21,305 nucleotides of DNA from a virus, in the IMG/VR virus record IMGVR_UViG_3300009285_006881, positions 1-21,305 of that record; one strand, written 5' to 3'. Of the stretch, positions 256 through 20,128 are shown in pieces. Position 1 is the stretch's first letter. The number at the start of each line of letters is the position of its first letter. The translations under genes and the position numbers were made by a program. Under the pieces are notes generated by a model, which did not search any database, was not told the origin of the DNA, and saw only the letters and a list, made by a program, of their open reading frames with translations.

Positions 256-1010
256 GCGCGGCTGACACCATCGACCAGGAGGCCATCGAGGCGGCGCTGG
301 TAGCCTGGGCGAGGTCCGTGGCCGGCTCGGGCGTGGCGGTATGGATGGCGGAGCAGTCCGAGCCGCGCCCGATGGGCGCCTACGTCGAGCTGCGCATCAC
401 ATCGACCGCGCAGGATGGCGCAGACCAGGCACCCGTGGACATGCTGCCGATCCTGGCGCTGAGCCAGCAGGGCAAGTGGTTCCAGGTGGCCGGCGACCAC
501 GCGCGTAAAATGGCGGCCGGCAAGTCGGTCGTGGTGAGCGAGAGCAGCGGCAACGACGCCACCTACACCATCGCGGCGAGCCGCTACCTGGACGGCCAGA
601 CGCGCGTGACTGTCGCGGAAGCGCTCGCCAGCGCGACCGTAGACGGCTACCTGACCGGCACCCGCGAGGTCACATCCATGGCGGAGATGACGATCCGCGT
701 CGAGTGCCACCGTCAACGGGCGGTCGCGCTGGCGCAGCGTCTGCGGGATTCGCTCGATGCCGAGGATGAGGCGTCCGACGCAATCTTGACCGCTGCCGGT
801 CTGGCGGTCTACCCTAGCGGCGTGGTGCAGAATCTTACCGGGCTCGGCGACACGAGCATGGTTTCGCGAGCAGGATTCGACGCCGTGCTCCTGGTGCCGA
901 GCGTGCGCTACGAATACCCGGGCATCGTCGACCACCTGATCGCCAGCGGCACGGTGCTGCGCGATGACGGCACGACGGCGGGCACCATCTCCATGGAGGT
1001 CGATGCCTGA
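252..1010 (+). CDS. Neck / tail terminator-like protein with an inserted beta module
   Basis: 252 residues from GTG 252, overlapping the previous stop. The ends resemble the phage neck/tail terminator family often annotated as LIC_12616-like: an N-terminal helix (EAIEAALVAWARSVAG), a WMAEQSEPRPMGAYVELRIT segment at about 31-50, and a C-terminal half (about 145-240) with MTIRVECHRQRAVALAQRLR, LTAAGLAVY and RAGFDAVLLV. Such proteins cap the tail and join it to the head, which fits the position directly before the sheath. Residues 74-136 do not belong to that family: this is an inserted module (GKWFQVAGDH, SSGNDATYTI, ASATVDGYL) that recurs in four other virion proteins here. It sits between two core strands, so it probably projects as a loop domain. 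Family assignment rests on remembered patterns, not a search. Confidence 0.72.
   Translation: MSAADTIDQEAIEAALVAWARSVAGSGVAVWMAEQSEPRPMGAYVELRITSTAQDGADQAPVDMLPILALSQQGKWFQVAGDHARKMAAGKSVVVSESSGNDATYTIAASRYLDGQTRVTVAEALASATVDGYLTGTREVTSMAEMTIRVECHRQRAVALAQRLRDSLDAEDEASDAILTAAGLAVYPSGVVQNLTGLGDTSMVSRAGFDAVLLVPSVRYEYPGIVDHLIASGTVLRDDGTTAGTISMEVDA
471..659 (+). repeat. Recurrent virion beta module, copy in neck protein
   Basis: Residues 74-136 of the neck protein. Hallmarks: FQVAGDH, a central SSGNDATYTI (elsewhere STGNDGTYTV) and ASATVDGYL at the end. It interrupts an otherwise recognisable terminator fold. See the finding on the recurrent module. Confidence 0.8.
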
Positions 1011-3052
1011 TGGCACTCCGCGATCACGTCAACTGGACCATCCGCCGCGTGGGCACGTCGCTCAAGCGCGCCAACTTCGGCATCGGCCTCGTGCTCGCCA
1101 TGCACCGCGCGTGGGAGGCCCGAACGCGCAGCTACGACGAGGAGGGCATCTCGGATGACTTCGAGTCCACATCGGTTGTGCGCCGGATGGCGGATGCGTA
1201 TTTCGCGCAGTCGCCCAGTCCAGCGACCGCTCTGATCGGCCGGCGTGACACCGCCGACGACGTGGGCGTGCGCGTGGTCTCCTTGCGCAACAGCACGTCC
1301 TACGACGTGACCATCGGCGGCCTGCTCCACCGGGTCACGTCCAGCGCAAGCGAGACGGCTGCCAACCTGATCGGCAAGATGGTCACGCAGATCGCGGGCG
1401 GGTACGAGGTCACTGCGGTGGTCGCGGGTGCTGCCGGGTACTTTCAGGTCGCGGGCAATCATCTCGACGAGTTCCTGGTCGGGCAGACGTTCACGATCTA
1501 CGGCAGTACTGGCAACGACGGCACGTACACGGTGGTCTCGGCAGCGCTCTCGGCCGGCAACACGCGGATCACTGTCGCCATGGTGCCCGACGCCACGGTG
1601 GATGGGCACATCGGCGGCTACGCGATCATCGTCGCGGACGCCACGAACAACCACTTCACCGTGACCGGCGACGTGCGCACGCGCTTCCCGGCCGGCCTGG
1701 AGGTCGGCGTCAAGGGCAGCACCGGCAACGACAACGCGGCCGGATCGCCCTACGTGGTCGTCAGCACCGCGCTGGACGGCAACGGCGACACCGAAATCTA
1801 CGTGGTCAACGTGGCCAGCGCTGTTGCCGATGGCGCGATCGTGAGCTTCGCCGACGGCGCGACGGCGCAGAACGAAGTATCCGCTGACGTGGCCACATGG
1901 GCGGTCGCGACTTCGGTGCTGGGCACCGACACGATCACCGTGACGGCCGACCTGACCGGCGTGCTGGCAGTCGGCGAGTACTTCTGGATCACGGACAGCG
2001 CTGGCAACACCGGCCGCTACCGGGTCGCGTCGATCGCGTTCGTCACGCCGACCACCACCATCGTCACGGCCGAGGATCTGCCGGCCACCGAGACATCGCC
2101 GAACGCGGGCAACCTGTCCATCGAGCGCGCGGTGGTCAGCCCGGACAGCGCCTCGCAGTTCTACACGATCGTGACCGAGAGCAAGCTGCGGCTAGAGTTC
2201 GCCGCCGGGCAGGCGGCGGACGAGGACTTCGACGACTGCGTGGACAGCAACAACACCTTCTACGGCGTCTATCTCGACGGGCGCGACGTGGACGACGTGA
2301 TGGCTCTGGCCAACCACGTCGAAGCCCTGGGCGATGCCAATCCCAAGCTGTTCCAGACGGGGACCAGCGACAGCACTGCGCACGACACCGCGGACGCTTC
2401 GGACGATCCGCTGGTGGGCTCGGTCGGCAAGCGCATCCGGTCACTGGGGCTCGCGCGTACATGGTGTTTCTGGCACTCGACGGCAGGCGAGGACGGCGAC
2501 GAGTCCGCGTCGGACACCTACCCCGAGATCAGGCTGTGCGCCAAGATGCTCACGACCGACCCGGGCTCATCGACCTGGCATGACCAGACGCTCGTGGGCC
2601 TGACGGTGGACGAGTTCACAGCGGACGCGCGCGCCAACCTGGTCGCCAAGGGCTACACGTTCTACGAGGACGTGTCGGGCCTGAGCGCGACGGTGGGCGG
2701 CACGGTGGGCGAGTCGGGCATCGCCTGGATCGACACGATCGTAGGCTCCGACTGGCTGCGTATGCGGCTCATGGAGGAGTGCTACACGGCGGTCCACAGC
2801 GCCGCGAACGCCGGGACCAAGGTGCCGCATACGGTCAAGGGCTACGGCACATTCGAGTCGGCGATCCGGTCTGTCGCTCAGGAGGGCGTGGACAACGGCT
2901 ACATCGAGAGCATCGGGACCATCACGGTGCCGACCGAGCGGGCGCCGGCGGCAGACCGCCAGGCGCGCGTGCTCAACCTGCCGAGCGCGTTCAGCTTCGG
3001 CTTGGCCGGTGCGGTCGGCACCATCGACGGTTCCGGGGAGGTCTATCAGTAA
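1010..3052 (+). CDS. Contractile tail sheath protein (DUF3383-like) carrying three tandem inserted modules
   Basis: 680 residues, ATG 1010 overlapping the previous stop as TGATG. The C-terminal half is the conserved sheath part: FYGVYLDGRDVDDVMALANH, TWCFWHS, a DQTLVGLTVDEFTADARANL region, GYTFYEDVSG, an IAWIDTIVGSDWLRMRLMEE helix, VPHTVKGYGTFESAIRSV and a final strand region with ITVPTERAPAADRQARV. This pattern and the tube gene just downstream indicate the DUF3383 type of sheath, which polymerises around the tube and contracts on infection. DUF3383 sheaths are usually near 450-500 residues. The excess is explained by residues about 141-371, which hold three successive copies of the beta module found in other virion proteins. 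They fall between the N-terminal strand domain (about 85-125) and the core, so they likely stand out from the sheath surface. Confidence 0.9.
   Translation: MALRDHVNWTIRRVGTSLKRANFGIGLVLAMHRAWEARTRSYDEEGISDDFESTSVVRRMADAYFAQSPSPATALIGRRDTADDVGVRVVSLRNSTSYDVTIGGLLHRVTSSASETAANLIGKMVTQIAGGYEVTAVVAGAAGYFQVAGNHLDEFLVGQTFTIYGSTGNDGTYTVVSAALSAGNTRITVAMVPDATVDGHIGGYAIIVADATNNHFTVTGDVRTRFPAGLEVGVKGSTGNDNAAGSPYVVVSTALDGNGDTEIYVVNVASAVADGAIVSFADGATAQNEVSADVATWAVATSVLGTDTITVTADLTGVLAVGEYFWITDSAGNTGRYRVASIAFVTPTTTIVTAEDLPATETSPNAGNLSIERAVVSPDSASQFYTIVTESKLRLEFAAGQAADEDFDDCVDSNNTFYGVYLDGRDVDDVMALANHVEALGDANPKLFQTGTSDSTAHDTADASDDPLVGSVGKRIRSLGLARTWCFWHSTAGEDGDESASDTYPEIRLCAKMLTTDPGSSTWHDQTLVGLTVDEFTADARANLVAKGYTFYEDVSGLSATVGGTVGESGIAWIDTIVGSDWLRMRLMEECYTAVHSAANAGTKVPHTVKGYGTFESAIRSVAQEGVDNGYIESIGTITVPTERAPAADRQARVLNLPSAFSFGLAGAVGTIDGSGEVYQ
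1430..1618 (+). repeat. Recurrent virion beta module, sheath copy 1
   Basis: Sheath residues 141-203. The best preserved copy: YFQVAGNHLDEFLVGQTF, YGSTGNDGTYTVVSA, RITVAMVPDATVDGHIGGY. Bases 1583-1605 are identical over 23 nt to 14463-14485 in the tailspike copy. Confidence 0.9.
1625..1849 (+). repeat. Recurrent virion beta module, sheath copy 2
   Basis: Sheath residues 206-280. HFTVTGDVRTRFPAGLEV, KGSTGNDNAAGSPYVVVSTA and TEIYVVNVASAVADGAIVSF align with copy 1; a short insertion follows the STGND turn. Confidence 0.8.
1904..2122 (+). repeat. Recurrent virion beta module, sheath copy 3 (divergent)
   Basis: Sheath residues 299-371. DTITVTADLTGVLAVGEYFW, TDSAGNTGRYRVASIAF and TTTIVTAEDLPA keep the strand and turn spacing, but the STGNDG signature is reduced to SAGNTG and ATVDG is lost. 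Confidence 0.6.
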
Positions 3053-3462
3053 TGGGCCGCGTGTACAATCCGAAGGCGAACACGCTCATCATCGGGCCGC
3101 ACATCATCGGTGGATTGGCCGAGGACGGCATCGAGGTCTCGCTGCAGGACGACGACTGGCTGGTGGACGCCGGCATGGACGGCGAGATCATCCTGTCGCT
3201 GAATCCGACCAACATCGCGGCCGTGACGATCCGGTGCTTGATGAACTCGTCGAGCAACGCGATCCTATCGGCAGTGCGTTCCGCCGCGAAGGAGGCCGGC
3301 ACGCTGGTGCCGTTCCTGCTGCGCTCGGGCACCACCATCATCGCCTCGGGCCAGTTCGTGATCAGCAAGGCGCCCGACGTCAAGCAGCACAAACGGGCGC
3401 AGGTGCGCGAGTGGAAGGGCATCGCGCTGAACTGCGCTCCGTACTTCGTCGGATCGGTGTAG
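3052..3462 (+). CDS. Tail tube protein (DUF3277-like)
   Basis: 136 residues starting at ATG 3052, whose A is the last base of the sheath TAA stop (TAATG). A start further upstream in this frame would overlap the sheath gene and give non-phage-like Arg-rich sequence, so 3052 is the right one. The sequence YNPKANTLIIGPHIIGGLAE, DDDWLVDAGMDGEIILSLNP, a TIRCLMNSSSNAILSAVRSA segment, VPFLLRSGTTIIASGQFVIS and the end REWKGIALNCAPYFVGSV match the DUF3277 tube family of myoviruses such as KPP10-like phages. It forms the inner tail tube inside the sheath. Length is normal for the family, with no inserted module. Sheath then tube is the expected order. Confidence 0.88.
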   Translation: MGRVYNPKANTLIIGPHIIGGLAEDGIEVSLQDDDWLVDAGMDGEIILSLNPTNIAAVTIRCLMNSSSNAILSAVRSAAKEAGTLVPFLLRSGTTIIASGQFVISKAPDVKQHKRAQVREWKGIALNCAPYFVGSV

Positions 3463-3465
3463 CCC

Positions 3466-3999
3466 GTGGAGGGCATCCGGGAAAAGACGATCGGCGGTCG
3501 CCGCTGGCAGTGCGGCTACCCACCCGCGACGCATGCGCTGGACGTACTGCTGGCGCTGTTTGACCGCATCGCGCCGGCCATCGTGTCGCTGGCGCCGCTG
3601 TTCCTGGGCGGCGATGAGGACGATGCGCCTGTCGCGGCCGGTCCTGCCGGCGCTCAGGCGCGTCGTGAGCGCGCACAGGATGTGGGCGCTCGCAGCAGCG
3701 CCGCTCTCGGCAGCGCGTTGGCCGCGCTGCACCTGAACGATGGCAAGTCGGTCAGGCTGATCAAGGATATCTTGGAGGGCGTGCAGTACAGCGACGACGG
3801 CGGCGAAACGTGGCTGCCGGCGCGCGAGACGTTCGACACGGTGTTCGCCGGGCCGGAGGGCCTCGAGACGCTGTTCCGCGTGGTTGGTTGGTCGGTGGAG
3901 GCCAACTACAAAGGCCCTTTGGTCTCGAGGCTGCTCGCCGGCGGCGGGGGGCCGAAGATGGCGAAGACGCTCAAGTCCCTGGGCCTGACGATGTCCTAG
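3466..3999 (+). CDS. Tail assembly chaperone, short (zero-frame) product
   Basis: 177 residues from GTG 3466, three bases after the tube stop. It lies in the usual slot of the tail assembly chaperone, between tube and tape measure. Visible parts: IGGRRWQCGYPPATHALDVL, a hydrophobic stretch DRIAPAIVSLAPLFLGG, an Ala-rich linker with EDDAPVAAGPAGAQARRERA, then IKDILEGVQYSDDGGETWLP and GPEGLETLFRVVGWSVEANY. The last segment, tying the chain to a residue-rich VEANYKGPL end, is typical of N-terminal chaperone products. These proteins coat the tape measure during tail assembly and are absent from mature virions. The tail of the frame (after the slippery site at 3915) has no obvious function. The role is inferred from position, frameshift architecture and composition. 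Confidence 0.8.
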   Translation: MEGIREKTIGGRRWQCGYPPATHALDVLLALFDRIAPAIVSLAPLFLGGDEDDAPVAAGPAGAQARRERAQDVGARSSAALGSALAALHLNDGKSVRLIKDILEGVQYSDDGGETWLPARETFDTVFAGPEGLETLFRVVGWSVEANYKGPLVSRLLAGGGGPKMAKTLKSLGLTMS

Positions 4000-4247
4000 G
4001 CGCCGAGGGCGCCGAGCGGCTGCGGCGCGACTGGCCTCTCACGCGTCTGGTCGCCTCGCAGTGGTGCCGCTGGTCGGAGTTCCAGCGCGCATACCCGGAC
4101 GGCCTGACGCTGGAGCGCGTGTTGCTGCTCAATGAGGCGCTGGATTACGAGAACGCCGCGCGCAAGGCGGCGGTGAAGCCGGAGACTGACGACGCGCCGG
4201 ACCCGGGCGTAGCGGCCGCGTTGGCTTCTGCGCGGGGACGCAGGTAG
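3466..4247 (+). CDS. Tail assembly chaperone, long product made by -1 ribosomal frameshift
   Basis: The reading frame open until 4247 lies in the -1 frame relative to 3466-3999 and has no credible start of its own. Shifting at 3915-3921 joins residues 1-152 of the short product to 108 residues from the second frame, giving about 260 residues. The second frame becomes clearly protein-like after the zero-frame stop: RLRRDWPLTRLVASQWCRWS, EFQRAYPDGLTLERVLLLNE and ALDYENAARKAAV, a short helical segment of the kind that follows the shift in lambda G-T-like chaperones. This two-product layout directly before the tape measure is conserved in many tailed phages (established for lambda gpG/gpGT). The frame relation and the heptamer are seen; use of the site is inferred. 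Confidence 0.78.
3915..3921 (+). promoter_or_regulatory. Slippery heptamer C_CCT_TTG for -1 frameshifting
   Basis: CCCTTTG is read in zero frame as CCT TTG and fits X_XXY_YYZ exactly; after slipping the tRNAs would sit on CCC and TTT. It lies 76 nt before the zero-frame stop and inside the open second frame. An imperfect hairpin downstream is possible (3935-3939 with 3960-3964, 3942-3945 with 3951-3954) but weak. Confidence 0.72.
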
Positions 4248-4250
4248 GAT
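4221..4250 (+). promoter_or_regulatory. Possible promoter before the tape measure gene
   Basis: TTGGCT (4221-4226), an 18 nt spacer and TAGGAT (4245-4250) give a sigma70-like layout 11 nt before the tape measure ATG. The TAG of TAGGAT is also the stop of the chaperone frame, so chance is a real alternative. Confidence 0.22.
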
Positions 4251-4261
4251 AGACGTCGGCC

Positions 4262-5932
4262 ATGGCGATCAAGATCCGCGAGTTGATCACGACATGGGGC
4301 TTCAAGGTCGATTCTGCCAAGGTCGAGGCGTTCGAGAAGCGGCTGACGAGCGTGGTCGGCACGGCCAAGGTCGTCGGCGCGGCTGTGGTCGGCGCGGCCG
4401 GAGGGCTGTTCGCGCTGGCGGTATCGGCCGCCCGCACCGGCGACGACCTCCAGGAGATGGCGCAGCGGACCGGAGTGAGCGTCGAGGCGCTGCAAGAGAT
4501 CGGCTACGCCGCGAAGCTGTCCGGCATGGACATGGGCAGCCTGGAGACGAGCCTGCGATTCATGTCCCGGGCGATGGTGGACTCCCCGGACAAGTTCGCC
4601 AAGCTCGGCGTCAGCATCCGGGACGCGCGGGGCGAGCTACTGCCGGCGACCACCGTGATCGACAACCTCGCGGCCAAGTTCGCGGGGATGCCGGATGGTC
4701 CGACCAAGACCGCTGCTGCCGTCGAGGTGTTCGGCCGTGCCGGCTCGTCGATTATCCCGATGCTAAATCAGGGCGCAGAGGGCCTGCGCAGAATGCGGGA
4801 GGAAGCCATCGCGCTGGGCCTGGTCATGTCGGCAGAGGACGCTGCCGCCAGCGACAAGTTCATGGACTCGCTCGCCGGTCTGGAGGCGGCGGCTACGGGT
4901 ATGCGCAACACCCTCGGGATCATGCTGCTGCCGATGATCCAGAACGTCGTCGAGAAACTCAAGGCGTGGTTCATGGCGAACCGCGAGTTGATCGCGCAGA
5001 AGGTCGAGGCCATCTTCACCGGGATCGGCAAGGCGTTGGAGGTGGTCTGGTCGATCATGTCCGGGCTGGTGCGCGTGGTCGTCTCCGTGGTCAACGCACT
5101 GGGCGGCTTCGGCCGCGTCGCGACGATTCTCTGGGTCATCGCGGGAGCCTTCGCCGCGTGGCAGATCGGCGCGCTGCTCATGTCGTTGACGGCGCTGATC
5201 GGCGCGCTGGGGGCGGTCGGAACCGCCGGACTGATCGCGCAGTTGAAGATCCTGGCGCTGCCGCTCGTCATCGGCGCGCTGTTTCTCCTGGTCGGCGCCA
5301 TCATCGAGGACTTCGTCGCGTTCTTCCAGGGGCGGGCAAGCGTGATCGGCGAGCACATTGACGGCGTGGCGTTCGCCAGCGAGCTCGGCAGGCAGGCCGT
5401 CAGCGACCTCGGGCTGGCAGTCGGGGCGCTGGCGCTGGTTTTCGGGCTCCTGTTCTCGCCGGTGCTCGCGTTCGTCGGCGCGCTCGGCTTGATCGTCGTC
5501 TCGCTCGGCATCGTGCTGGACAACTGGGACGACTTCACCAAGGAGTTCGGCGACGGCCTCGACATGCTCGGCACGTGGTGGACCGAGAAATGGACGGCGA
5601 TGAAGGACTGGTTCGCCACCAACTTCATCGAGCCAATCAAACTCATGTGGCGCGACCTGCGGCGCACCGGAGGCATCGGCGACATCCTCGACTACCTCGG
5701 CGGCGAGGTCGGCAACACGAAGTTCGGCAGTGCGGCTCCGTCGCCCGCCGGTGCGCCATCTGCTGGCGCGGCCGGCGGTAGCAGCAGGACGGTCGGCGTC
5801 CACAACGAGGTGACGGTCAACCTCGGCGGGGATGGCGGAGCGGCGAGCCCGACAGCTGCAAGCGACATCGCCCGCGCCGTGCGCAAGGAACTCGACCGGC
5901 ATGCCGGCCAGGTCGCGGCGGAGTTGGGCTGA
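4262..5932 (+). CDS. Tail tape measure protein
   Basis: 556 residues, ATG 4262, 14 nt after the long chaperone stop, with no strong ribosome binding site. The N-terminus (ITTWGFKVDSAKVEAFEKRL, hydrophobic 31-57, then TGDDLQEMAQRTGVSVEALQ and IGYAAKLSGMD) is typical of tape measure proteins. Two hydrophobic regions follow at about 258-350 and 385-420, which in such proteins help genome entry through the host membrane. A Gly/Ala/Pro linker (490-508) leads to a C-terminal end with VTVNLGGDGG and a helix DIARAVRKELDRHAGQVAAE, also typical. It sets tail length and sits in the tube lumen. At about 0.15 nm per residue the tail would be near 80 nm, assuming most of the chain is stretched. Position after the chaperone supports the call. 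Confidence 0.92.
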   Translation: MAIKIRELITTWGFKVDSAKVEAFEKRLTSVVGTAKVVGAAVVGAAGGLFALAVSAARTGDDLQEMAQRTGVSVEALQEIGYAAKLSGMDMGSLETSLRFMSRAMVDSPDKFAKLGVSIRDARGELLPATTVIDNLAAKFAGMPDGPTKTAAAVEVFGRAGSSIIPMLNQGAEGLRRMREEAIALGLVMSAEDAAASDKFMDSLAGLEAAATGMRNTLGIMLLPMIQNVVEKLKAWFMANRELIAQKVEAIFTGIGKALEVVWSIMSGLVRVVVSVVNALGGFGRVATILWVIAGAFAAWQIGALLMSLTALIGALGAVGTAGLIAQLKILALPLVIGALFLLVGAIIEDFVAFFQGRASVIGEHIDGVAFASELGRQAVSDLGLAVGALALVFGLLFSPVLAFVGALGLIVVSLGIVLDNWDDFTKEFGDGLDMLGTWWTEKWTAMKDWFATNFIEPIKLMWRDLRRTGGIGDILDYLGGEVGNTKFGSAAPSPAGAPSAGAAGGSSRTVGVHNEVTVNLGGDGGAASPTAASDIARAVRKELDRHAGQVAAELG

Positions 5933-6591
5933 TGGCCGCCCTTGACGTGCTGTCGCTGTTCTTCGGCAAGGATCCGCGGACACAACTGTGGACCGCCGAC
6001 GGCATCCGGCTGCCGTGCGATGGCGTGTTGGCCTTCGATCACACCATGGAGTCCGAGATCACGGACTCACCGGTCGAGGACGGATCCAAGATCAGTGACA
6101 GCATCATCCACGCGCCGCGCGAAGCCACGCTGGAGGGCATCGTCAGCGATTACCCGGCCAAGATGCTGGGCGGAGTCCTCTCGGGTGGGCTATCCGGCGC
6201 GGGCATTACCGGCGCGACCGACCTGATCGGTGGGCCACTGGGCGACTTGTTCGGCAAGGAGCGATTCTCGCAGATCGCCTTCCGCACGCTGGAACAGGCG
6301 TGGGAGACGCGCACGGCGCTGACCGTGATCACGCGCATGCGGCCCTATGACGACATGTACATCCAGCGGCTCTCGATCCCGCAGACCAAGGCGACCGCGA
6401 ACACGCTGCGTTTCTCGATGCGCCTGCGGCAGATCAAGACCGTCAGCTCCAGCCTGGTCGCAGTGACCGTCGCGGCCACTGTCACCGCGGCCGCTGCGCC
6501 AGCGCGCAAGGCTGGCCGGCAGCCACCCGCGCCTGCCCCCGCACCCGCTGCCGACCGTGGCGAGTCCATGCTGCACGCGCTCCTGTACTGA
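5932..6591 (+). CDS. Dit-like baseplate protein
   Basis: 219 residues, ATG 5932 overlapping the tape measure stop as TGATG. The middle part shows the Dit-like N-terminal domain of simple contractile tails: GVLAFDHTMESEITDSPVED, GSKISDSIIHAPREATLEGI, VSDYP, followed by a Gly-rich stretch (about 79-105), FRTLEQAWETRTALTVITRM, RPYDDMYIQRLSIPQTKATA and a final strand FSMRLRQIKTV. The last 45 residues are an Ala/Pro-rich low-complexity tail (PARKAGRQPPAPAPAPAA). In related phages this protein links the tube end to the baseplate hub. Its place between tape measure and baseplate plug agrees. Family recognition is from motif memory only. Confidence 0.8.
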   Translation: MAALDVLSLFFGKDPRTQLWTADGIRLPCDGVLAFDHTMESEITDSPVEDGSKISDSIIHAPREATLEGIVSDYPAKMLGGVLSGGLSGAGITGATDLIGGPLGDLFGKERFSQIAFRTLEQAWETRTALTVITRMRPYDDMYIQRLSIPQTKATANTLRFSMRLRQIKTVSSSLVAVTVAATVTAAAAPARKAGRQPPAPAPAPAADRGESMLHALLY

Positions 6592-6593
6592 CC

Positions 6594-6935
6594 ATGCCTA
6601 CACTGATCCCACTCGGAGACCCGACCATCGCTGACCTGGCGGTGACGACGCAGTTGGGCGACGAACTCTACTCGCTGCGCCGAGTCTGGAACGACCGTGG
6701 CGCATGCTGGGCTCTCGATCTGGCGGGTGCCAGCGGCGAGCCGGCCGTACAGGGATGGCCGTTGCGCCTTGGCATGCCGGTCGCACTGGGCGTGGTCGCC
6801 GATGGCGTACCAACCGGCGCGCTGGTGCTGGTGGATGAAGACGGCACCGGCATCGAGTGCGCGCAGATTGACCTCGGCGGGCGATGCAAACTGCTCTACT
6901 TCACGGCCGAGGAAGTCGCCGCGTTGGCGGCATGA
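6594..6935 (+). CDS. Baseplate plug protein (Pam3 gp18-like)
   Basis: 113 residues, ATG 6594, two bases after the previous stop. It has the pattern of the small cyanophage-type baseplate plug family: a first strand with TTQLGDELYSLRRVWNDRGA, CWALDLAGASGEPAVQGWPL, RLGMPVALGVV, TGALVLVDEDGTGIE and the end IDLGGRCKLLYFTAEEV. The W-N-D-R turn followed by W.LDL, and the GR.KLLYF strand, are the strongest signs. The protein probably closes the channel between tube and spike. Its normal length, and its position between the Dit-like and hub genes, support this. Its stop overlaps the next start in ATGA. Confidence 0.8.
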   Translation: MPTLIPLGDPTIADLAVTTQLGDELYSLRRVWNDRGACWALDLAGASGEPAVQGWPLRLGMPVALGVVADGVPTGALVLVDEDGTGIECAQIDLGGRCKLLYFTAEEVAALAA

Positions 6936-7894
6936 CCATGTCCGACGTGCTCGATCCGACCGCGCTGTGGGGGCGACGGGCGGTCGTGACGGTCGGGCCA
7001 CAGGGGCAACTCGGATGGTCCTTCGACAGCCTTCCGCACGGCGACAGCTTCCGCATCGTGTTCGACGTGGAGAAGACGCTGGACCGCACGACGAACAAGG
7101 CTCGCGTCAGCATCTACGGCTTGTCGGCAGTGACCGCGCACGGGTTCGATGTGAACCGGGACTTCCTCGACCTGTCAGCCGGCTTCGGCGAGAACATCGA
7201 GATGATCTATCACGGCGACCTGGCGACGGTGCACACCGAGCGGCGCGGCGCGAGCATGGTCACGGACCTGGAATGCTCGGACGGCGTGCGCAAGATCAAG
7301 GAGGCGAAGGTCGCCAAGACGTTCCCGCGCGGGACGCCACAGGTGAACATCGTGGCCGATGTTGCCGCCACCATCGGCGACCTGAAACGTGACATGCTCG
7401 CATCGATCTCGGCAGCGGTTGCGGACGCGAAGAAGAACGGCATCACGGCCGCGCTTACCAAGTCGTTCACGGCAAGCGGTCCGGCGGCGACCGAGATGGA
7501 CCGCCTCGGCCAGAAGCTCGGCTTCAAGTGGTCGGTCCAGGATGGCGCTGTGCAGGTAGTGCCGAACGGCCAACCACTGCCTGGGACCGCCGTGCTCCTG
7601 ACGCCGTACACGGGGCTCGTGGGCGTGCCTACGCGGCTCGCGCAGACCAAGGGCGAGGACGGCAAGATGCAGGGATTCGACGGATTCAAGGCCAGCTTCC
7701 TGCTGATTCCAGGCGTGACGCCAGGTGCGCTCGTGGCCGTGTCCAGCACGACGCTGCGCGGCGTCGGGCGCGTGCGCAAGGTCCACCTGTCGGGCGACAC
7801 GCGGAGCGGCTGGTTCGGCGGTGAGTGCGAGGTCGAGGAGCTGCCCGGCGTGACCGCGCTGGTCCCGGAGTGGCCGGTCGAGTCGCCGTGGTAG
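6932..7894 (+). CDS. Baseplate hub protein (gp44/gpD-like)
   Basis: 320 residues from ATG 6932, which overlaps the plug stop as ATGA; a second in-frame ATG at 6938 is possible, and an upstream one at 6884 would run deep into the plug gene. The N-terminal strand region FRIVFDVEKTLDRTTNKARV followed by SIYGLS is typical of phage hub proteins. Then come NIEMIYHGDLATVHTERRGA, VTDLECSDGVRKIKEAKVAK, a helical part (about 150-205), GFKWSVQDGAVQVVPNGQ and a last strand region with GRVRKVHLSGDTRSGWFGGE and CEVEEL. The layout resembles the gp27/gpD/gp44 group that forms the trimeric hub holding the spike. The spike gene follows directly. The family is fairly sure; sub-family is not. Confidence 0.75.
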   Translation: MTMSDVLDPTALWGRRAVVTVGPQGQLGWSFDSLPHGDSFRIVFDVEKTLDRTTNKARVSIYGLSAVTAHGFDVNRDFLDLSAGFGENIEMIYHGDLATVHTERRGASMVTDLECSDGVRKIKEAKVAKTFPRGTPQVNIVADVAATIGDLKRDMLASISAAVADAKKNGITAALTKSFTASGPAATEMDRLGQKLGFKWSVQDGAVQVVPNGQPLPGTAVLLTPYTGLVGVPTRLAQTKGEDGKMQGFDGFKASFLLIPGVTPGALVAVSSTTLRGVGRVRKVHLSGDTRSGWFGGECEVEELPGVTALVPEWPVESPW

Positions 7895-7903
7895 GCTTGA
7901 AGC

Positions 7904-8488
7904 ATGGCTGACGACCGCGTGGACGGCTGGGCCGAGTTGACCCGGACGATCATCCGGCTCGCGCGCGCGGGCGTGCTGTGCGGGCTGCCTGGCCGCGTGG
8001 AGCGGTACAGCGCAAGCCCGAGCCCCGTGGCATCGGTGCGGCTGCTGGTCCGCGAGATGCTGCGCGACGGCGCGCTCGCTGAGGATCCTGTGCTGGAGGA
8101 CCTGCCGGTGCTGTTCCCGGGCAACGGCCGGATCGCGTTCCGCTGGACAGTGATGCCGGGCGATCAGGTGTGGGTGTCGTTCTCAGGCCGCGAGTTGGGC
8201 GCATGGATGGCGACGTTGCAGGCGCCGGCGCTGGCTCTCGCGCCGGCGGTAGTAGATCCGGTGGAGCCCTCGATCCACGCCCGGGAGGATTGCGTTTGCT
8301 GGCCGTTCGCGGTGAGCGGCGCCCCGGTGCAGGTGGACGTGTTGGAGTGGATCGGCGCCGTGATTGAGGCTCTCACGGTGGCTGCGCCCAGCTTCGTCAT
8401 CGGCCCGCCGGGCGGGCCGTGGACGCTGGACGCCACGCTGCTCGCCACTCTGACCGCCAGGTTGGCGCAGTTGAACGCGGTGAGGTAG
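7904..8488 (+). CDS. Central spike / puncturing protein with Gp138-like OB domain
   Basis: 194 residues, ATG 7904. Residues about 25-115 fit the Gp138 N-terminal OB-fold domain: GLPGRVERYSASPSPVASVR, LLVREMLRDG, ED..LEDLPVLFPGNGRIAF, RWTVMPGDQVWVSFSGRELG. This domain starts the membrane-piercing spike at the tip of simple contractile tails. The rest (about 116-194) contains WPFAVSGAPVQVDVLEWIGA and a short C-terminal part with GPWTLDATLLATLTARLAQL; there is no long needle helix, so the spike tip is short or supplied by another protein. It follows the hub gene as expected. The upstream TAGGCT (7892-7897), six bases before the ATG, could be a -10 box for a leaderless start, but it overlaps the hub stop. 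Confidence 0.8.
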   Translation: MADDRVDGWAELTRTIIRLARAGVLCGLPGRVERYSASPSPVASVRLLVREMLRDGALAEDPVLEDLPVLFPGNGRIAFRWTVMPGDQVWVSFSGRELGAWMATLQAPALALAPAVVDPVEPSIHAREDCVCWPFAVSGAPVQVDVLEWIGAVIEALTVAAPSFVIGPPGGPWTLDATLLATLTARLAQLNAVR

Positions 8489-8491
8489 CAT
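8462..8491 (+). promoter_or_regulatory. Possible promoter before the gp25-like gene
   Basis: TTGGCG (8462-8467), an 18 nt spacer and TAGCAT (8486-8491) have the same geometry as the element at 4221-4250 and end 10 nt before the ATG at 8502. The TAG again doubles as a stop codon, so the match may be chance. Confidence 0.18.
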
Positions 8492-8501
8492 CGGGGAGAC
8501 C

Positions 8502-8870
8502 ATGGCCGAACTGCTCGACCTTGCCGCCGGAGACGACGGCGACCTCGCTGAGATGGTGGACGGCGACCTGGCCCACGTCGAGGACGGCGACGCTCTGGCG
8601 CAGATCATCCAACTGCGACTGGAGACGCCGACGGACTCGTGGTTTCTCGACACGTCGGTCTACGTAGACTACCGCCGCCGCGTGTTCATCAAGGGCGTCT
8701 CGCTCGCCGAGGTGACGTCCGAACTTCGCGGCGCCATCCTGGGCGCGCCGTTCGTGCGCGACATCAAGCGGCTCGACCTGAACTTTGACCGCCCGGCCCG
8801 GCGACTGCAAGTGGCGTTCGTGGCCCGCTCGCGCTTCCGCGAGGTGGGCGCCACGGCGACGGTGGCATGA
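8502..8870 (+). CDS. Baseplate wedge protein, gp25/DUF2634-like
   Basis: 122 residues, ATG 8502, with a GGGGAG at 8493-8498 as a close ribosome binding site. An acidic N-terminus (AAGDDGDLAEMVDGDLAHVE) leads into the gp25-type core: DALAQIIQLRLETPTDSWFL, DTSVYVDYRRRVFIKG, a helix around LAEVTSELRGAILGAPFVRD, and strands IKRLDLNFDRPARRLQVAFV. The order, with ALAQ.I..RL.T..GSWF-like start and the final strands, is that of the T4 gp25 / phage W baseplate wedge family, which joins the sheath's first ring to the baseplate. Location directly before the J-like protein is the standard arrangement. The stop overlaps the next start (ATGATG at 8867). Confidence 0.82.
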   Translation: MAELLDLAAGDDGDLAEMVDGDLAHVEDGDALAQIIQLRLETPTDSWFLDTSVYVDYRRRVFIKGVSLAEVTSELRGAILGAPFVRDIKRLDLNFDRPARRLQVAFVARSRFREVGATATVA

Positions 8871-10564
8871 TGGCGTGGGGCGTCACGGCTGCCGGCTTCG
8901 CGCGCAAGCGCCTGGTGGACGTGCTGGCAGACGTGTACGCCGCGCTTCGGGCCGCGTTCGGCGGCGGCATCCGGCTGGCTGCCGATAGCCGCTACGGGCG
9001 CCTAGCGGGCGTGTACGCCGCACAGGAGGCGAGTCTGTGGGAGGTAGCGGAGCAGGTATTCTGGTCGCAGTATCGAGCGACGGCCACCGGCGTGGCGTTC
9101 GACCTGGCGCTCGCACAGACCGGGCATCGGCGCCTAGCTGCGGAGGCATCGCAGTGCTGGTGCCGTCTGGACGGGACGCAGGCCACCGTGGTTGAGGAGC
9201 CGGCGCAGGTCCGCAATCCGCTCACAGGCGACGCCTACGCGCTGACCGCCGACGTGACCATCGACGCTGCCGACTGCCTGCGCGCAGTGGTGGAGGTCGT
9301 GACTGCCGAGGCGGGCGACTACACGCTCCGCATTGACGGCACCGACTACACGTACACGTCGGTCGGCACCAACCCGCTGGCCATCGCTGCGGGCCTGCGC
9401 ACCGCTCTGAATCTCGGCTACCCGATTACCGCCGTCGCGCTGCTAGCCCGGCAGGTCACGATCGGCGGCAACCATCTGGCCGAGTTCCCGGTCGGCAAGG
9501 GGGCTTTCGTTACGGCCGGCGCGAACCTCGGCTATCGCACCGTCCAGGCGCGCGAACTCGACGGCGGCGACACGGTAGTCACGTTCATGGAGGACCTCGA
9601 CTCGGCGGCGGTCGCGGGCAATCTGCGCAAGGGGCTCGCCGCCAGTTCTGAGGGCTTCGCCGGGCCAGCCCCGCCGACGGTCTACGGGACGCTGACGGTG
9701 GTTCTTGGCTTCCCAGAGCCCGCCGACGAGGCCGCCGGTTACGCGGTGGACCTGTCGGTCCAGGCGGAGCCCGCGCCCGGCGACCTGGACATCACGTCGG
9801 TTGGCTCGCCAGCGTTGATCGAAGCGACCGCGACCGGACCGAAGGATCTGGCGGCCGGCGTGGACATGGAGATCCTCAACGCGGCGATGGGTTGGACGGG
9901 CGCCGTGACCGTGCTCGCCGCTGACGTGGGCCGGAACCGGGAAACTGAGGTCGAGGGGCGCATCCGCGTCGCGGGCGATCTCCAGGTGGCCGGCGCTTCG
10001 GTGTTGGGCGCCATCCGCGCCCGCATCGCACAGGTGGCCAACGTGGACTCGGTGGTCGTCTACCACAACACCGGCGACGCCGCGGACTCGGAAGGGCGCC
10101 CGGGGCACAGCGTCGAGGCCGTGGTCGAAGGCGGCCTGGCGCGCGACATCGCCCAGGCGCTCTTGGAAGCGGTCGCTGCCGGCATCGCCACGTTCGGCAA
10201 CCAGTCCGAAACGGTCTATGACTCGGAGGGCATCCCGCGCGTGCAGATGTTCTCGCGCATCTCGCGCATCCGCACGGTGGTCGAGGTGACGGTGACGGCG
10301 CTTCACGCAGAAGAGGATCTGCCCGATGATGCGGCCGACTTGGTCATCGCCGCCGTGGTCGACTACGGCGACGCTCTCGCCGACGGCAAGGACGTGGTCG
10401 GCCAGCGGTTCATCGGCGGCATCTTCGCGGCGGTGCCCGGCATCGAGGCCATGGCCGTGCTGGTGGATCGCTTCGGCGGTGGCGGGTTGGCTCCGACCGA
10501 GGCCATCGGTCCGCGCGAGCGCGCGGTCTTCGACGCGGCCGACGTGACGGTGGTGGGCCTGTGA
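8867..10564 (+). CDS. Baseplate wedge protein J / gp47-like with inserted beta module
   Basis: 565 residues, ATG 8867 overlapping the previous stop (8870 is an alternative ATG). Its end shows the baseplate J pattern: EVEGRIRVAGDLQVAGASVL, GAIRARIAQVANVDSVVVYH, an RPGHSVEAVVEGGLARDIAQ segment with ALLEAVAAGI, SRISRIRTVVEVTVTALHAE, and the last part with GQRFIGGIFAAVPGIEAMAV. The N-terminus (LVDVLADVYAALRAAFGGGI, a helix up to about 90) is also typical. This wedge protein forms the outer baseplate ring that receives tail fibers. Residues about 193-256 are an inserted copy of the recurrent module (QVTIGGNHLAEFPVGKGAF, VTAGANLGYRTVQA). A preceding segment, about 145-185 (DYTLRIDGTDYTYTSVGTNP), resembles another small phage beta module seen in many virion proteins. 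Confidence 0.85.
   Translation: MMAWGVTAAGFARKRLVDVLADVYAALRAAFGGGIRLAADSRYGRLAGVYAAQEASLWEVAEQVFWSQYRATATGVAFDLALAQTGHRRLAAEASQCWCRLDGTQATVVEEPAQVRNPLTGDAYALTADVTIDAADCLRAVVEVVTAEAGDYTLRIDGTDYTYTSVGTNPLAIAAGLRTALNLGYPITAVALLARQVTIGGNHLAEFPVGKGAFVTAGANLGYRTVQARELDGGDTVVTFMEDLDSAAVAGNLRKGLAASSEGFAGPAPPTVYGTLTVVLGFPEPADEAAGYAVDLSVQAEPAPGDLDITSVGSPALIEATATGPKDLAAGVDMEILNAAMGWTGAVTVLAADVGRNRETEVEGRIRVAGDLQVAGASVLGAIRARIAQVANVDSVVVYHNTGDAADSEGRPGHSVEAVVEGGLARDIAQALLEAVAAGIATFGNQSETVYDSEGIPRVQMFSRISRIRTVVEVTVTALHAEEDLPDDAADLVIAAVVDYGDALADGKDVVGQRFIGGIFAAVPGIEAMAVLVDRFGGGGLAPTEAIGPRERAVFDAADVTVVGL
9443..9634 (+). repeat. Recurrent virion beta module, copy in J-like wedge protein
   Basis: Residues 193-256. 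VTIGGNHLAEFPVGKGAFV aligns closely with sheath copy 1 (VAGNHLDEFLVG); the middle is TAGANLGYRTV in place of STGNDGTYTV, and the end is SAAVAGNL in place of ATVDG.I. Confidence 0.72.
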
Positions 10565-10956
10565 GCGCATTGCCCGATGCCGGCCGGTGCCTCGCGCTGA
10601 GCGCGCTGATTCGCGGACTCGGACCGCTGTCGCTGCGGCTGTACACCGGTCGCACGCAGCCGGTGGATGCCGTCGCGCAGACCAACGAGTTCATCGAGGC
10701 GACGTTCACCGGCTACGCACGCATCGAGCTTGACCCGGGCGCATGGGAGGCCCCGGCCACGGACGGCGATGGCATAAGCGCCATCGCTTACCCAGTGCAA
10801 TACCTCGTGGCCGGCGGTACGCAGGGCCTCGCCGGCTACATCCTCACGGACCTCAAGGGCCGGCTGATCTTGTTCGAGGAGGTGGACGGTCTCGGCGCGG
10901 TCGAGGGCTTCCCGATCGCCATCACGCCGCGCCTTGAAGCGGGAGCGGTCGACTGA
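10561..10956 (+). CDS. Small virion protein, tail tip / appendage associated
   Basis: 131 residues from GTG 10561 overlapping the J-like stop as GTGA. The pattern LSLRLYTGRTQPVDAVAQTN, EFIEATFTGYARIELDPGAW and the end YILTDLKGRLILFEEVDGLG, VEGFPIAITPRLEAG recalls a widespread small phage structural protein in which an LRLYTN...PTD start and an F.EATF.GY segment are conserved. The molecular role of that family is not settled in my knowledge; the genes tend to lie next to tail fibers. Here it stands between the wedge protein and a large appendage protein, so a tail tip or fiber-base part is likely. It contains no copy of the recurrent module. The stop overlaps the next start as TGATG. Confidence 0.6.
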   Translation: MSALPDAGRCLALSALIRGLGPLSLRLYTGRTQPVDAVAQTNEFIEATFTGYARIELDPGAWEAPATDGDGISAIAYPVQYLVAGGTQGLAGYILTDLKGRLILFEEVDGLGAVEGFPIAITPRLEAGAVD

Positions 10957-12926: not shown

Positions 12927-12928
12927 CC

Positions 12929-13153
12929 GTGGCCGACGTCGCGCGTGATGTAGGATTCCAAGTGGTGCTTGCCGGCGACGATCCGGCTGACGTGCTGATG
13001 GCCGGCCCGGTCGAGCTTGTCTGCGACGGCGGTCTCGGCCTCGGGGGCGCGGCTCACGTCGCAGTCCACCAACCCGGGTTCATCTTCGACCATTCGCCGC
13101 GGGCGATCGCGCACCTGCCGGCGAGCCACCCGCGCACGCGCGCGGAGGCGTAG
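12929..13153 (+). CDS. Small hypothetical tail-region protein
   Basis: 74 residues from GTG 12929, two bases after the previous stop; the frame is open further upstream, but that part is the shadow of the appendage gene. The stop is one base before the GTG of the next gene, so the two are probably coupled. Sequence: VARDVGFQVVLAGDDPADVL, AGPVELVCDGGLGLGGAAHV, then HQPGFIFDHSPRAIAHLPAS. A short beta-rich part is followed by an Arg/Ala end. I know no family for it. The compact spacing and the plausible amino acid mix support a real gene. Confidence 0.55.
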   Translation: MADVARDVGFQVVLAGDDPADVLMAGPVELVCDGGLGLGGAAHVAVHQPGFIFDHSPRAIAHLPASHPRTRAEA

Positions 13154-13154
13154 C

Positions 13155-13928
13155 GTGGCCATCGCCTCCCGCTTCGCTCGGCTGATCGAAGCGCTGATCG
13201 GGCGGCCGACCGGGCACCTGCCGACGTGGGGGCTCCAGGAACTCGAGGAGGTCTTCGACGCGATGGGTTGGCGCCGATCGGTGCTGGGCGCGACGGGGAC
13301 GCTGCTGGAGTTGGTAGGCGCAGACCTCGGGCTCGGGCGCACGTCGCTCGACGACGACGAGTACCGGACGGACCTGCTGATCCAGATCCTAATCAACACG
13401 TCCAAGGGCGAACTGGAACGCATGCAGACCATGATGCGCATGGTGCCCGGCCGCGTGCAGTCGTGGGTGGACGTGCTCCCGCCAGCGTGCATCTCGCTCC
13501 AGTTGCTCGGCACTATCCTGCGACCGGGCACGTGGACGCGGTTTCGCTCGGCGGTTGCGGCCGGCGTCGGCTGCGAGGTCGTGGCGACTGCCACGCTGGT
13601 GCCGATGCGGTTCGGTTCCCTGACGGTCGATCCGCGCACGCCAGCCGGCCGGATCGCGTCGTTGTGGACCATCGCCGGCGTGGTGGTTGGCGGTCCTGGC
13701 GCTGGCGCCTTCGTGCTGACTGGCGACAAGACCGCGCTCTACGACGTGGGCGATCCCGTGAGCGTCGAGGGCAGCGTGGCCGACGACGGCGACTACGAGA
13801 TCACCGGCGCCACATTCGGCGCGGGCGTGACGCAGGTGGATGTCGCCGAGGCTGTGGTCGGCCCGGCGAGCGGCGCGATCCTGTACGGCAAGGCGACCGA
13901 AGCCGGGCGCATGGCGAGCATCCTCTGA
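13155..13928 (+). CDS. DUF2612-like baseplate protein with a C-terminal beta module
   Basis: 257 residues. GTG 13155 lies one base after the previous stop; the frame upstream gives only Arg/Ser-rich shadow sequence. Residues about 23-145 match the DUF2612-type baseplate pattern: ELEEVFDAMG, LLELVGADLGLGRTSLDDDE, YRTDLLIQILINTSKGELER and a hydrophobic continuation (ACISLQLLGTILRPGTWTRF). In related tails such proteins belong to the outer baseplate and usually follow the J-like gene; here three genes lie between them. The C-terminal third (177-246) is a copy of the recurrent module: FVLTGDKTALYDVGDPVSVE, ADDGDYEITGATF, VTQVDVAEAVVG. It has been added as a terminal domain, unlike the internal copies elsewhere. 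Confidence 0.72.
   Translation: MAIASRFARLIEALIGRPTGHLPTWGLQELEEVFDAMGWRRSVLGATGTLLELVGADLGLGRTSLDDDEYRTDLLIQILINTSKGELERMQTMMRMVPGRVQSWVDVLPPACISLQLLGTILRPGTWTRFRSAVAAGVGCEVVATATLVPMRFGSLTVDPRTPAGRIASLWTIAGVVVGGPGAGAFVLTGDKTALYDVGDPVSVEGSVADDGDYEITGATFGAGVTQVDVAEAVVGPASGAILYGKATEAGRMASIL
13683..13892 (+). repeat. Recurrent virion beta module, copy in DUF2612-like protein
   Basis: Residues 177-246. GAFVLTGDKTALYDVGDPVSV followed by ADDGDYEITGATFGAG matches the module's first strand, F.VG turn and NDG.Y.V hairpin; the end (VVGPASGAILY) replaces ATVDG. Confidence 0.68.
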
Positions 13929-13942
13929 CACCGTGGTAGGAT

Positions 13943-13947
13943 AGGAG
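13943..13947 (+). promoter_or_regulatory. Strong ribosome binding site of the tailspike gene
   Basis: AGGAG with a five-base spacer before ATG 13953. Most upstream genes depend on overlap with the previous gene, so this marks an independently initiated gene. A TAGGAT lies just before it (13937-13942). Confidence 0.6.
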
Positions 13948-13952
13948 TACAG

Positions 13953-15923
13953 ATGTCCCAGTACCCGCAGCCCACCGAAGATACCCGCTTTGCCTCCGTG
14001 CTCGGGACCGATCCGATATCGGGCGAGCCAACCAGGGCCGCACTCAGCGCCGGTCGGCGCAATACCGGATGGCTGCACGACGAGTTCTTGCCCGGCAACG
14101 GGGCGAACACGCTCGCCTACGCCTCGCACGTCTGGCGGCTGTACCTCCAGGCGCATGCGATCCGGGTCGCCTCACGCATGGTCGGCGCTCTCGATTCGGA
14201 CCCGGACGGCACCGAGTACCTGGGCGACGGACTGGCGGACAACGTGCCGATCCAGGCGGCCATCGACTCGACGATGGACACGCACGGGATCACCGGCGTG
14301 GTGGCTGGCGCGGGCGGGACACTCACGATCGCGGGTGATCGCGTTGACGACTTTCACGTCGGCCGCACGTTCCACGTCGAGGGCTCGACGGGCAACGACG
14401 GCGCCTACGTCGTGACGGGCGTGGCCCTCGCGGCCGGCGATACTGTGCTGACCGTGGCGAACGTGCCCGACGCCACGGTGGATGGCGACGTAATGCTCTA
14501 CCGGGGCGGCGTGGTGCAGTTGAGCGAGGGGCTGTTCACGCTGACGGCCGGGATAGTCCTGCGACGAAACGTCACTCTGCGGGGTGCAGGCAAGCGCCGG
14601 ACGGTCCTGCGCGTGGCCGGCGCGAGCGAGGTGGGCGGCGATGCTGCCGATTTTATCGTCATCAGCGCGTCAAGCACCGATCATGTCGGCGTCGAGTGCC
14701 TCACGGTGGACGGCAACGGCGGCGATCTCGCTATCCACGGCAACGACGGGATTGAGTTCTCCACGGTGGACGCCGGTGTGCTGCGGGAGGTCGAGGTCTT
14801 CAGGTGCCATTCCATCGGGGCGCCCGGAGCCGAAGGCATCGGGGTGCGCGTGAGTTCGACATGCACGGGCATCGTCCTCGACGACGTCGCGGCCGAGGAC
14901 TGCGATACCTACGGCCTCCTGATCGGCGGATCCGGTCATCGCGCGCGGGGGCTGTCGGCCATCGGCTGTGACTATGAGGGATGCTCGTGGAGCGCCGACG
15001 CAAGCGACCTCGACGGATACTTCTCGTCAGGGTGCGCCGGCGGCATCCAGATCGACGCGACCGAGTCGACGTTTCGGCACATGCGCACGACGGCCGCTGT
15101 GGCGCCGTTGCCTCACGGGATCGTCATCAGCGGCGCCGCGGCGCGCTGCGACTTCTCCGACTGCTGGTCCTACGCCAACGACGGGCACGGGTTCTACGAC
15201 ACCAGCTCGGTCGGAGAGCACACCTTCGCGCGCTGTCGTGCGACCGACAACCTCGACGGGGGATTCGTCAGCGACGATGGTGGGCGCAACCACTACGTCA
15301 CTTGCACCGCCAGCGGCAACACGGCTGACGGGTTCGAGCAGGCAGCAGGCAGCGACGGTCTCAACTCGTGGGTCGACTGCCTCGCCAAGGACAACGGCGT
15401 CAACGGCTGGCTGCTCACCGCGGGCACGAAGAACCGCCTCGTCAACTGCCGAGCGGAAGGCAACGCAGCATGGGGCGTCAAGAGCTACGGAGCGAAGACG
15501 ACCTTCACCGGCTGCGTGGCCGAGGGCAACGGCGAGGAAGGCGTGTTGCTCAGCACGGGCGCGGAGCAGAAGTGGCTTGGCGGGCGCATCGATGAGAACG
15601 ACAAGGGCGGGATCTGGCTACACCAGAGCGACGAGTCCGAGGTGCGCGACTGCCATCTGACCGACAACGGCCAGACCGGCGCCGATGCCTACGACGCGAT
15701 CGTGGTCGAGGACGCCGACCAGTGCGGGGTGGTCGGGAACACCTTAAGCCAGCACGGCGCTGGCATCCGGTACGGGGTCAACCTGCTAACGACTGCCCAG
15801 AACGTGAAGTTCTACGGCAACCAGATCGCGGCGGGCGCCACGGGCGCTTACAACGTGGGCGGCGTTGCGACAACGTTCTCCATGGGCATCGATGTCGCCG
15901 TAGCGAATCTCACATGGTGGTAG
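13953..15923 (+). CDS. Tailspike / receptor-binding protein, right-handed beta-helix, with inserted module
   Basis: 656 residues, ATG 13953 behind a good AGGAG site. Residues 1-105 are a putative virion-binding head (TRFASVLGTDPISGEPTRAA, WRLYLQAHAI) and end in the classic DNVPIQAAIDS start of pectate-lyase-3-like folds. The continuation GGVVQLSEGLFTL, VLRRNVTLRGAGKRRTVLR (186-220) is the usual next part, but residues 113-185 of the recurrent module have been placed between them. From about 220 to 620 lie parallel beta-helix coils of about 23 residues with a regular cysteine ladder (C404, 428, 451, 476, 499, 521, 567, 591) and repeated [AR].GN/DN turns. Such proteins bind, and often cut, surface polysaccharide; no catalytic residues can be assigned here. 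It likely determines host range. Confidence 0.88.
   Translation: MSQYPQPTEDTRFASVLGTDPISGEPTRAALSAGRRNTGWLHDEFLPGNGANTLAYASHVWRLYLQAHAIRVASRMVGALDSDPDGTEYLGDGLADNVPIQAAIDSTMDTHGITGVVAGAGGTLTIAGDRVDDFHVGRTFHVEGSTGNDGAYVVTGVALAAGDTVLTVANVPDATVDGDVMLYRGGVVQLSEGLFTLTAGIVLRRNVTLRGAGKRRTVLRVAGASEVGGDAADFIVISASSTDHVGVECLTVDGNGGDLAIHGNDGIEFSTVDAGVLREVEVFRCHSIGAPGAEGIGVRVSSTCTGIVLDDVAAEDCDTYGLLIGGSGHRARGLSAIGCDYEGCSWSADASDLDGYFSSGCAGGIQIDATESTFRHMRTTAAVAPLPHGIVISGAAARCDFSDCWSYANDGHGFYDTSSVGEHTFARCRATDNLDGGFVSDDGGRNHYVTCTASGNTADGFEQAAGSDGLNSWVDCLAKDNGVNGWLLTAGTKNRLVNCRAEGNAAWGVKSYGAKTTFTGCVAEGNGEEGVLLSTGAEQKWLGGRIDENDKGGIWLHQSDESEVRDCHLTDNGQTGADAYDAIVVEDADQCGVVGNTLSQHGAGIRYGVNLLTTAQNVKFYGNQIAAGATGAYNVGGVATTFSMGIDVAVANLTWW
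14289..14507 (+). repeat. Recurrent virion beta module, copy in tailspike
   Basis: Residues 113-185. GGTLTIAGDRVDDFHVGRTF, VEGSTGNDGAYVVTGVA, VLTVANVPDATVDGDVMLY: very close to sheath copy 1, including 23 identical bases (14463-14485 with 1583-1605). Confidence 0.9.
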
Positions 15924-20079: not shown

Positions 20080-20128
20080 TTGCCCGGAGGCTACCACGCT
20101 TGACAGCGCATATGGACCCTCCGAAGCT
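20080..20128. promoter_or_regulatory. Divergent intergenic region, likely two-way control
   Basis: 49 bp separate the starts of the minus modification operon and the plus receiver-domain gene. It holds a perfect TTGACA (20100-20105, plus strand) but no convincing -10 at 16-18 nt, and a 6 bp inverted repeat CGGAGG (20085-20090) / CCTCCG (20118-20123) that could be an operator. Confidence 0.35.

Follow-up and report, generated by a model that had tools for sequence, protein, structure and literature searches.

The window analysed here, a whole viral contig of 21,305 bases from IMG/VR that encodes a contractile tail, contains seven copies of one small beta domain (hereafter, the module) in five virion proteins. 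The copies are of common descent and have been inserted into complete carriers; the module is found in many kinds of virion carrier, and among relatives the same slots are reused with varying copy number. This kind of domain is already known, since it has been documented that phage structural proteins in general share domains (PMC10684548); the new elements are the module family and the use of fixed slots for it throughout the virion.

The tail genes of the window comprise a neck terminator, sheath, assembly chaperone, tape measure, Dit-like protein, hub-like protein, wedge, DUF2612-like protein and beta-helix spike. The five carriers among them are:

252..1010, + strand: phage neck (tail) terminator (PF23961, 1.9e-12; NF047498, 2.3e-13)
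1010..3052, + strand: tail sheath, DUF3383 / phrog_205 (phrog_205, E 2e-55; PF11863)
8867..10564, + strand: baseplate wedge, J-like (phrog_6, E 1e-21)
13017..13928, + strand: DUF2612-like baseplate protein, start codon uncertain (PF11041, 18.7 bits, below cut-off; baseplate PHROGs)
13953..15923, + strand: beta-helix tailspike (PF13229, 2.1e-22)

The sheath matches the tail assemblies of Sf14 and Bas63 by Foldseek (E ~1e-20), a homologue of the wedge (L161) matches PF04865 (Baseplate_J), with Erwinia phage phiEt88 among the closest isolates for this protein, and a homologue of the DUF2612-like protein (L157) reaches 50.3 bits with PF11041, above the cut-off. The module copies, with the E-values obtained when each was left out of the profile, are located as follows:

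426..686, + strand: module copy in the neck terminator 252-1010 (1.8e-17; inserted piece ~441-653)
1382..1621, + strand: module copy 1 of the tail sheath (4.1e-22)
1607..1873, + strand: module copy 2 of the tail sheath (1.7e-10)
1877..2149, + strand: module copy 3 of the tail sheath, degenerate (1.7e-7)
9401..9652, + strand: module copy in the J-like wedge 8867-10564, degenerate (9e-8)
13647..13907, + strand: module copy at the C-terminus of the DUF2612-like protein, degenerate (2.4e-9)
14262..14522, + strand: module copy in the tailspike 13953-15923, at the beta-helix entry (2.3e-21; inserted piece ~14289-14507)
17324..17437, - strand: possible truncated N-terminal half module, between the GT2 and FkbM parts of ORF 16598-19114

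A first-pass annotation of this DNA had proposed that seven segments in five mutually unrelated virion proteins share one unit of 60-75 residues. Searches of the window's proteins confirmed the shared unit: when any one segment was withheld, a profile HMM trained on the remaining six still detected it (E 4e-22 to 2e-7), and all seven are therefore one domain, although the HMM envelopes place its length nearer to 80 residues. The carriers were likewise supported as unrelated to each other. BLASTP alone pairs the sheath with the spike (1e-19), the sheath with the neck (4e-11) and the DUF2612-like protein with the spike (8e-6), and links the wedge more weakly to the neck and sheath. The most conserved residues are GD, F..G, GSTGNDG.Y.V and DG; the STGNDG mark, which had been given as a feature of the unit, is present in the intact copies, while the degenerate sheath-3, wedge and DUF2612-like copies lack an intact one. 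No further predicted tail protein of the window scores with the module HMM, and one half-length match falls in the minus-strand ORF 16598-19114. One could instead suppose that Gly/Thr-rich beta segments resemble each other by chance, or that each segment is native to its carrier, and the low pairwise identity among modules (20-54%) would fit this, but the leave-one-out E-values, together with the module-free homologues and excision tests described below, make this explanation extremely improbable.

Comparison of the carriers with their homologues indicates that the module is an insertion that belongs to no carrier's own family. As had been claimed, a carrier core exists without the unit, and module-free homologues were found for the sheath, neck, wedge and DUF2612-like protein. 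More than 80 module-free homologues of about 430 aa were identified for the sheath, among which those of Pakpunavirus (~428 residues) lack the ~245-residue block that holds the three copies, and a further sheath (L060) has a single copy in the same slot. For the wedge, 39 homologues of about 490 residues are without the module, and the wedges of two syntenic relatives, G010 and G045, each have one copy at the same site. In these two relatives the same slots are occupied and copy numbers differ (window/G045/G010: neck 1/1/0, sheath 3/3/1), so that the neck of G045 has one module and that of G010 none. The DUF2612-like protein has two modules in G045, one in G010 and none in the homologue L157, its module standing at the same C-terminal position in both relatives. 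In silico excision of the inserted piece from the neck protein turned a split PF23961 match into a contiguous one (2-148 of 153), with a rise from 47.6 to 58.5 bits; the same operation on the spike, where the copy is flanked by AIDSTMDTHG and GVVQLSEG at the entry to the beta-helix, extended the PF12708 match from 17.8 bits (34-75) to 28.0 bits (11-75), which is now above the cut-off. The view of the segments as native parts of their carriers is thus refuted for the neck, sheath, wedge and spike, the refutation being weakest for the C-terminal copy of the DUF2612-like protein.

At the slot, module-free sheaths and module-free wedges share a domain some 85 residues long (hhalign 94.5%, E 7.7e-8), and in both carriers the module comes after a segment predicted to be helical in the sheath model. 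Modules may be transferred by recombination within this common domain, and the slot that the two carriers share hints at a way in which a domain could pass from one gene to an unrelated one and leave both intact. The two tail proteins, otherwise unrelated, have this domain in common even where the module is missing; it corresponds to aa 85-130 of the sheath and aa 136-180 of the wedge in the window, and the module-free homologues are found among L095-L174.

With regard to the origin of the copies, in-genome copying had been proposed as the source of their spread, and only one pair, sheath copy 1 and the spike copy, shows it clearly in nucleotide comparison: positions 1404-1605 and 14284-14485 are 69% identical in DNA over 204 bp, and this long match ends near the module boundaries. 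The spike copy is also the only one whose best match (54%) lies inside its own genome. The sheath-1, wedge and DUF2612-like copies find their best match in the same slot of G045 (65, 43 and 44%, respectively), sheath-2 in the single sheath copy of G010 (49%), and for the neck and sheath-3 copies, modules from several other phages are matches of nearly equal quality. When 64 contig clusters were compared, the nearest neighbour of modules from multi-copy contigs was at home in 6 of 56 cases versus 1.5 expected (p 0.009), and mean module identity was 0.316 within contigs versus 0.326 between them. Based on these best-match and nearest-neighbour patterns, the copies are mostly old, having been inherited with their slot or exchanged between phages, and in-genome copying is an occasional event; general in-genome amplification was rejected as the rule in view of the same-slot best matches in relatives and the small within-contig excess.

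The module could be a passenger of little benefit, carried from one phage gene to another by recombination and tolerated because it folds by itself in exposed loops, which we consider unlikely. The very uneven copy number (1-21), the truncated or degenerate copies and the slot turnover between relatives speak for such a passenger. The module sequence is constrained, on the other hand, as sheath-1 and spike copies differ with a dN of 0.40 and a dS of 0.85 (dN/dS ~0.46), and this value and the persistence in the same slots across diverged relatives argue for constraint; however, constraint for folding alone would also give both.

The distribution of the module extends far beyond the window. A scan of IMG/VR with a degenerate DNA pattern that encodes GSTGNDG.Y.V retrieved 88 stretches, nearly all of which encode the domain, and after iteration the family comprised 148 copies in 109 ORFs (those of the window included), almost all viral; because copies whose motif is intact are preferentially found in this way, the counts do not estimate prevalence. 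By a search with a 107-member profile, all 50 whole contigs searched carry the module, at 1-21 copies each (a few of these contigs being near-duplicates), and 23 of the 50 have two or more. The earlier description of seven copies in five carriers does not, therefore, point to a peculiarity of this phage. In two contigs, of 364 and 379 kb, the counts reach 12 and 21, respectively. Three large viral contigs, L042 (G031), L059 (G037) and L028 (G019), have 21, 18 and 15 copies, many of them in proteins of more than 1000 residues. Carriers of known family are mostly virion parts, including sheath, baseplate wedge, DUF2460 proteins, Gp84-type hub, SU10-type adaptor, tail tube, head decoration, spike and fibre. 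Among cultured phages, tblastn with single window modules found nothing, and only the family consensus reached a few (e.g. XacN1 and RcXuper); in Rhodobacter phage RcXuper the module lies in the tail tube protein, where a tube profile of 266 positions is spread over 461 residues. Plasmids gave no module match. In a sample of one bacterial phylum, the module was present in one of 198 genomes, which was the search seed itself, and it is thus not a common chromosomal domain in the sampled phylum. A contig assigned to the bin of an uncultured Bacteroidia MAG encodes a 1662-aa protein with six modules (L004, ORF 2872-7857), and this contig is probably phage DNA within the bin.

The fold of the module is predicted with confidence. 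AlphaFold2 modelling of the sheath-1 copy with the family alignment (pLDDT 94.2, pTM 0.84) gave a compact beta fold of seven strands with a short helix or helical turn. In a model of the full sheath, the module region is moderate (pLDDT mostly ~40-85) because few rows of the alignment bear modules, and sheath-3 shows a similar strand order there at low to moderate confidence. Foldseek against predicted viral proteins retrieved H9YRQ5 and H9YRP6 (TM 0.84), followed with weaker E-values by sheath, J-like baseplate and fibre proteins. Against solved structures the matches were weak (all E >0.05), the nearest being barrel-like domains, and included the K1 lyase 7W1C, phi92 endosialidase, T5 pb9 (Dit), HerA and F1 ATPase chains, and UBA6. 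A search of PDB sequences with module profiles returned only short, chance-like matches, and the motif STGNDG was not found in the literature searched.

The first-pass annotation knew of no named family for the unit and suggested a profile HMM search, which, once carried out, showed the segments to form one family and matched none in Pfam: across 107 modules no Pfam model fits the members, the best matches being weak (e.g. DUF5666, matched by 5 of 107, best E 5e-4). Annotation therefore misses the module, and sheaths, wedges and spikes that bear one look like orphans. Known domains that come near to it include: (i) K1-lyase_N (PF24145), the N-terminal domain of the Klebsiella K1 lyase; (ii) E1_FCCH (PF16190), as found in phage proteins; (iii) the PHROG phrog_1236; and (iv) Ig-like, FnIII and BIG2 domains. 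The K1 lyase structure 7W1C is the best PDB entry by Foldseek (probability 1.0, TM 0.63, E 0.055), its chains ranging over probabilities of 0.96-1.0 and TMq of 0.53-0.65, all at E >0.05 and most with an rmsd of ~5 A. PF24145 is also the Pfam model matched by most single modules (7 of 107, weak, best E 0.0033), but these matches are far below the cut-off of 27 bits (12.8 bits for the sheath-1 copy) and the family was described from one lyase. E1_FCCH has a similar register (I..V / GD.V.(I)SG / NG.Y.V) and aligned with the module profile over 46 columns in a single hhalign comparison (E 4e-4, probability 34%), and UBA6 is among the Foldseek matches; a distant tie of the module to phage FCCH-like domains is possible. 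The two differ in a loop and in the C-terminal half, and occur as separate domains within the same phage protein. E1_FCCH was rejected as the family name, given that PF16190 matches none of the window's copies and that in other contigs its above-cut-off matches adjoin modules and do not lie on them. The E1_FCCH-like domain (ITGATQANPVVVT..HG.S.GD.V.ISGV.GMTELNG..YTV) is itself very common in phage contigs, the pattern GMT[E/Q]LNG..Y.V identifying at least 120 stretches (L185-L304) among viral contigs. The profile phrog_1236 is matched by 38 of the 107 modules (best E 5e-5), but over only ~35-50 of its 177 positions (33-37 residues for the window's copies, not full-length), and its annotation is "head protein", not a module.

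Promiscuous Ig-like, FnIII and BIG2 domains have been described on phage virion proteins (Fraser et al. 2006, as cited in PMC9230969 and PMC5259590). Like them, the module is a small all-beta domain that recurs in several unrelated virion carriers and is absent from close carrier homologues. It differs from them in that its top structural neighbours, all of them weak matches (E >0.05), are barrel-like and not Ig sandwiches, and that four of the five window carriers hold it in internal slots; across the 107 modules no Ig-like, FnIII or BIG2 model of Pfam matched at cut-offs, and there were only isolated weak matches, e.g. to Big_6 (E 0.04) and Fn3_arc (E 0.011).

Regarding its role, the module may be an exposed accessory domain for adhesion or decoration, an explanation to which we give roughly even credence and which we rank first, ahead of stabilisation, passenger and glycosylation target in that order. 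According to this proposal, the ~80-residue beta domain would fold independently and act as a plug-in decoration, entering loops or joining an end of virion proteins whose own fold is retained. Modules would then lie on the outer face of the neck, sheath, baseplate and spike, where they could add many weak contacts to cell-surface or environmental polysaccharide and keep the phage near its host before specific binding, as has been proposed for phage Ig-like domains. Surface exposure is suggested by analogy with added (outer) sheath domains, which sit away from the tube and have been proposed to help in adhesion or stability (PMC9230969). Those domains are mostly Ig-like and were studied in sheaths alone, whereas the module is also found in the neck, wedge, DUF2612-like protein and spike. 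Weak carbohydrate binding has been attributed to Ig-like domains (Fraser et al. 2006, as cited in PMC9230969), and adhesion by the module is plausible by the same analogy; against it, the most conserved module residues look structural, unlike a ligand site. A bolder form of the adhesion proposal, which we hold to be possible but doubtful, is that an undescribed beta-fold "plug" moves as a clean cassette between unrelated virion genes and coats most of the outer surface with the same binding unit from neck to spike. It would land at fixed sites, namely the host domain that sheath and wedge have in common, the turn leading into the beta-helix of the spike and a hairpin of the terminator, with up to ~20 copies in large phages.

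The chief rival explanation, which we judge rather unlikely, is that the module stabilises the assembled sheath, baseplate or spike, acting there as cement, spacer or oligomerisation element. The K1 lyase likeness given above is relevant here, as the N-terminal domain of this enzyme, the best-characterised of the structural neighbours, has been described as resembling the collagen XVIII trimerisation domain (PMC8822698), a resemblance that favours a role in assembly or stability; moreover, the spike module stands at the start of the beta-helix, which is also the place of the K1 lyase domain, and stability is the second role offered for added sheath domains in PMC9230969. A stabilising role is harder to reconcile with carriers that differ in symmetry, with module-free homologues that assemble, and with a presence and copy number that vary among relatives, as listed above for neck and sheath. 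The matched sets identified here (a given carrier bearing 0, 1 or 3 copies among syntenic relatives, and the >80 module-free sheaths) make the part played by such add-on domains directly testable, for a module that can number ~20 per phage and that occurs in nearly every kind of outer virion protein.

Past the spike lie two ORFs on the minus strand, in which glycosyltransferase and methyltransferase domains are encoded. The first, 16598-19114, combines a GT2 glycosyltransferase with a C-terminal FkbM methyltransferase, and may represent two genes fused into one open frame; the second, 18901-20526, overlaps it and has two methyltransferase domains. Between the GT2 and FkbM parts lies the possible half module (17324-17437), which is 50% identical to the spike copy over 34 aa and scores 15.3 bits with the seven-copy model (best of 2000 shuffles, 5.6), but a non-significant 1.1 bits with the broad family model. 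An eighth, truncated copy at this position is therefore possible but uncertain. The GT2/FkbM ORF, with the half module possibly inside it, is the one hint that modules might be glycosylation targets, carrying sugars added by the phage's own enzymes and masking the virion. We regard this as very unlikely: no homologue of the glycosyltransferase ORF was found in the two module-bearing relatives (G045 and G010), and no conserved acceptor motif is evident outside the structural core.

Finally, two further plus-strand proteins were identified towards the ends of the window. Positions 1-255 encode the C-terminal end of an FnIII-like protein (PF00041, E 0.022; phrog_18315), cut at the contig start, and positions 20066-20716 encode a response-regulator receiver-like domain (PF00072, 24.5 bits, below cut-off) followed by an apparent membrane segment and a coiled coil, an arrangement that is unusual for a phage tail region.
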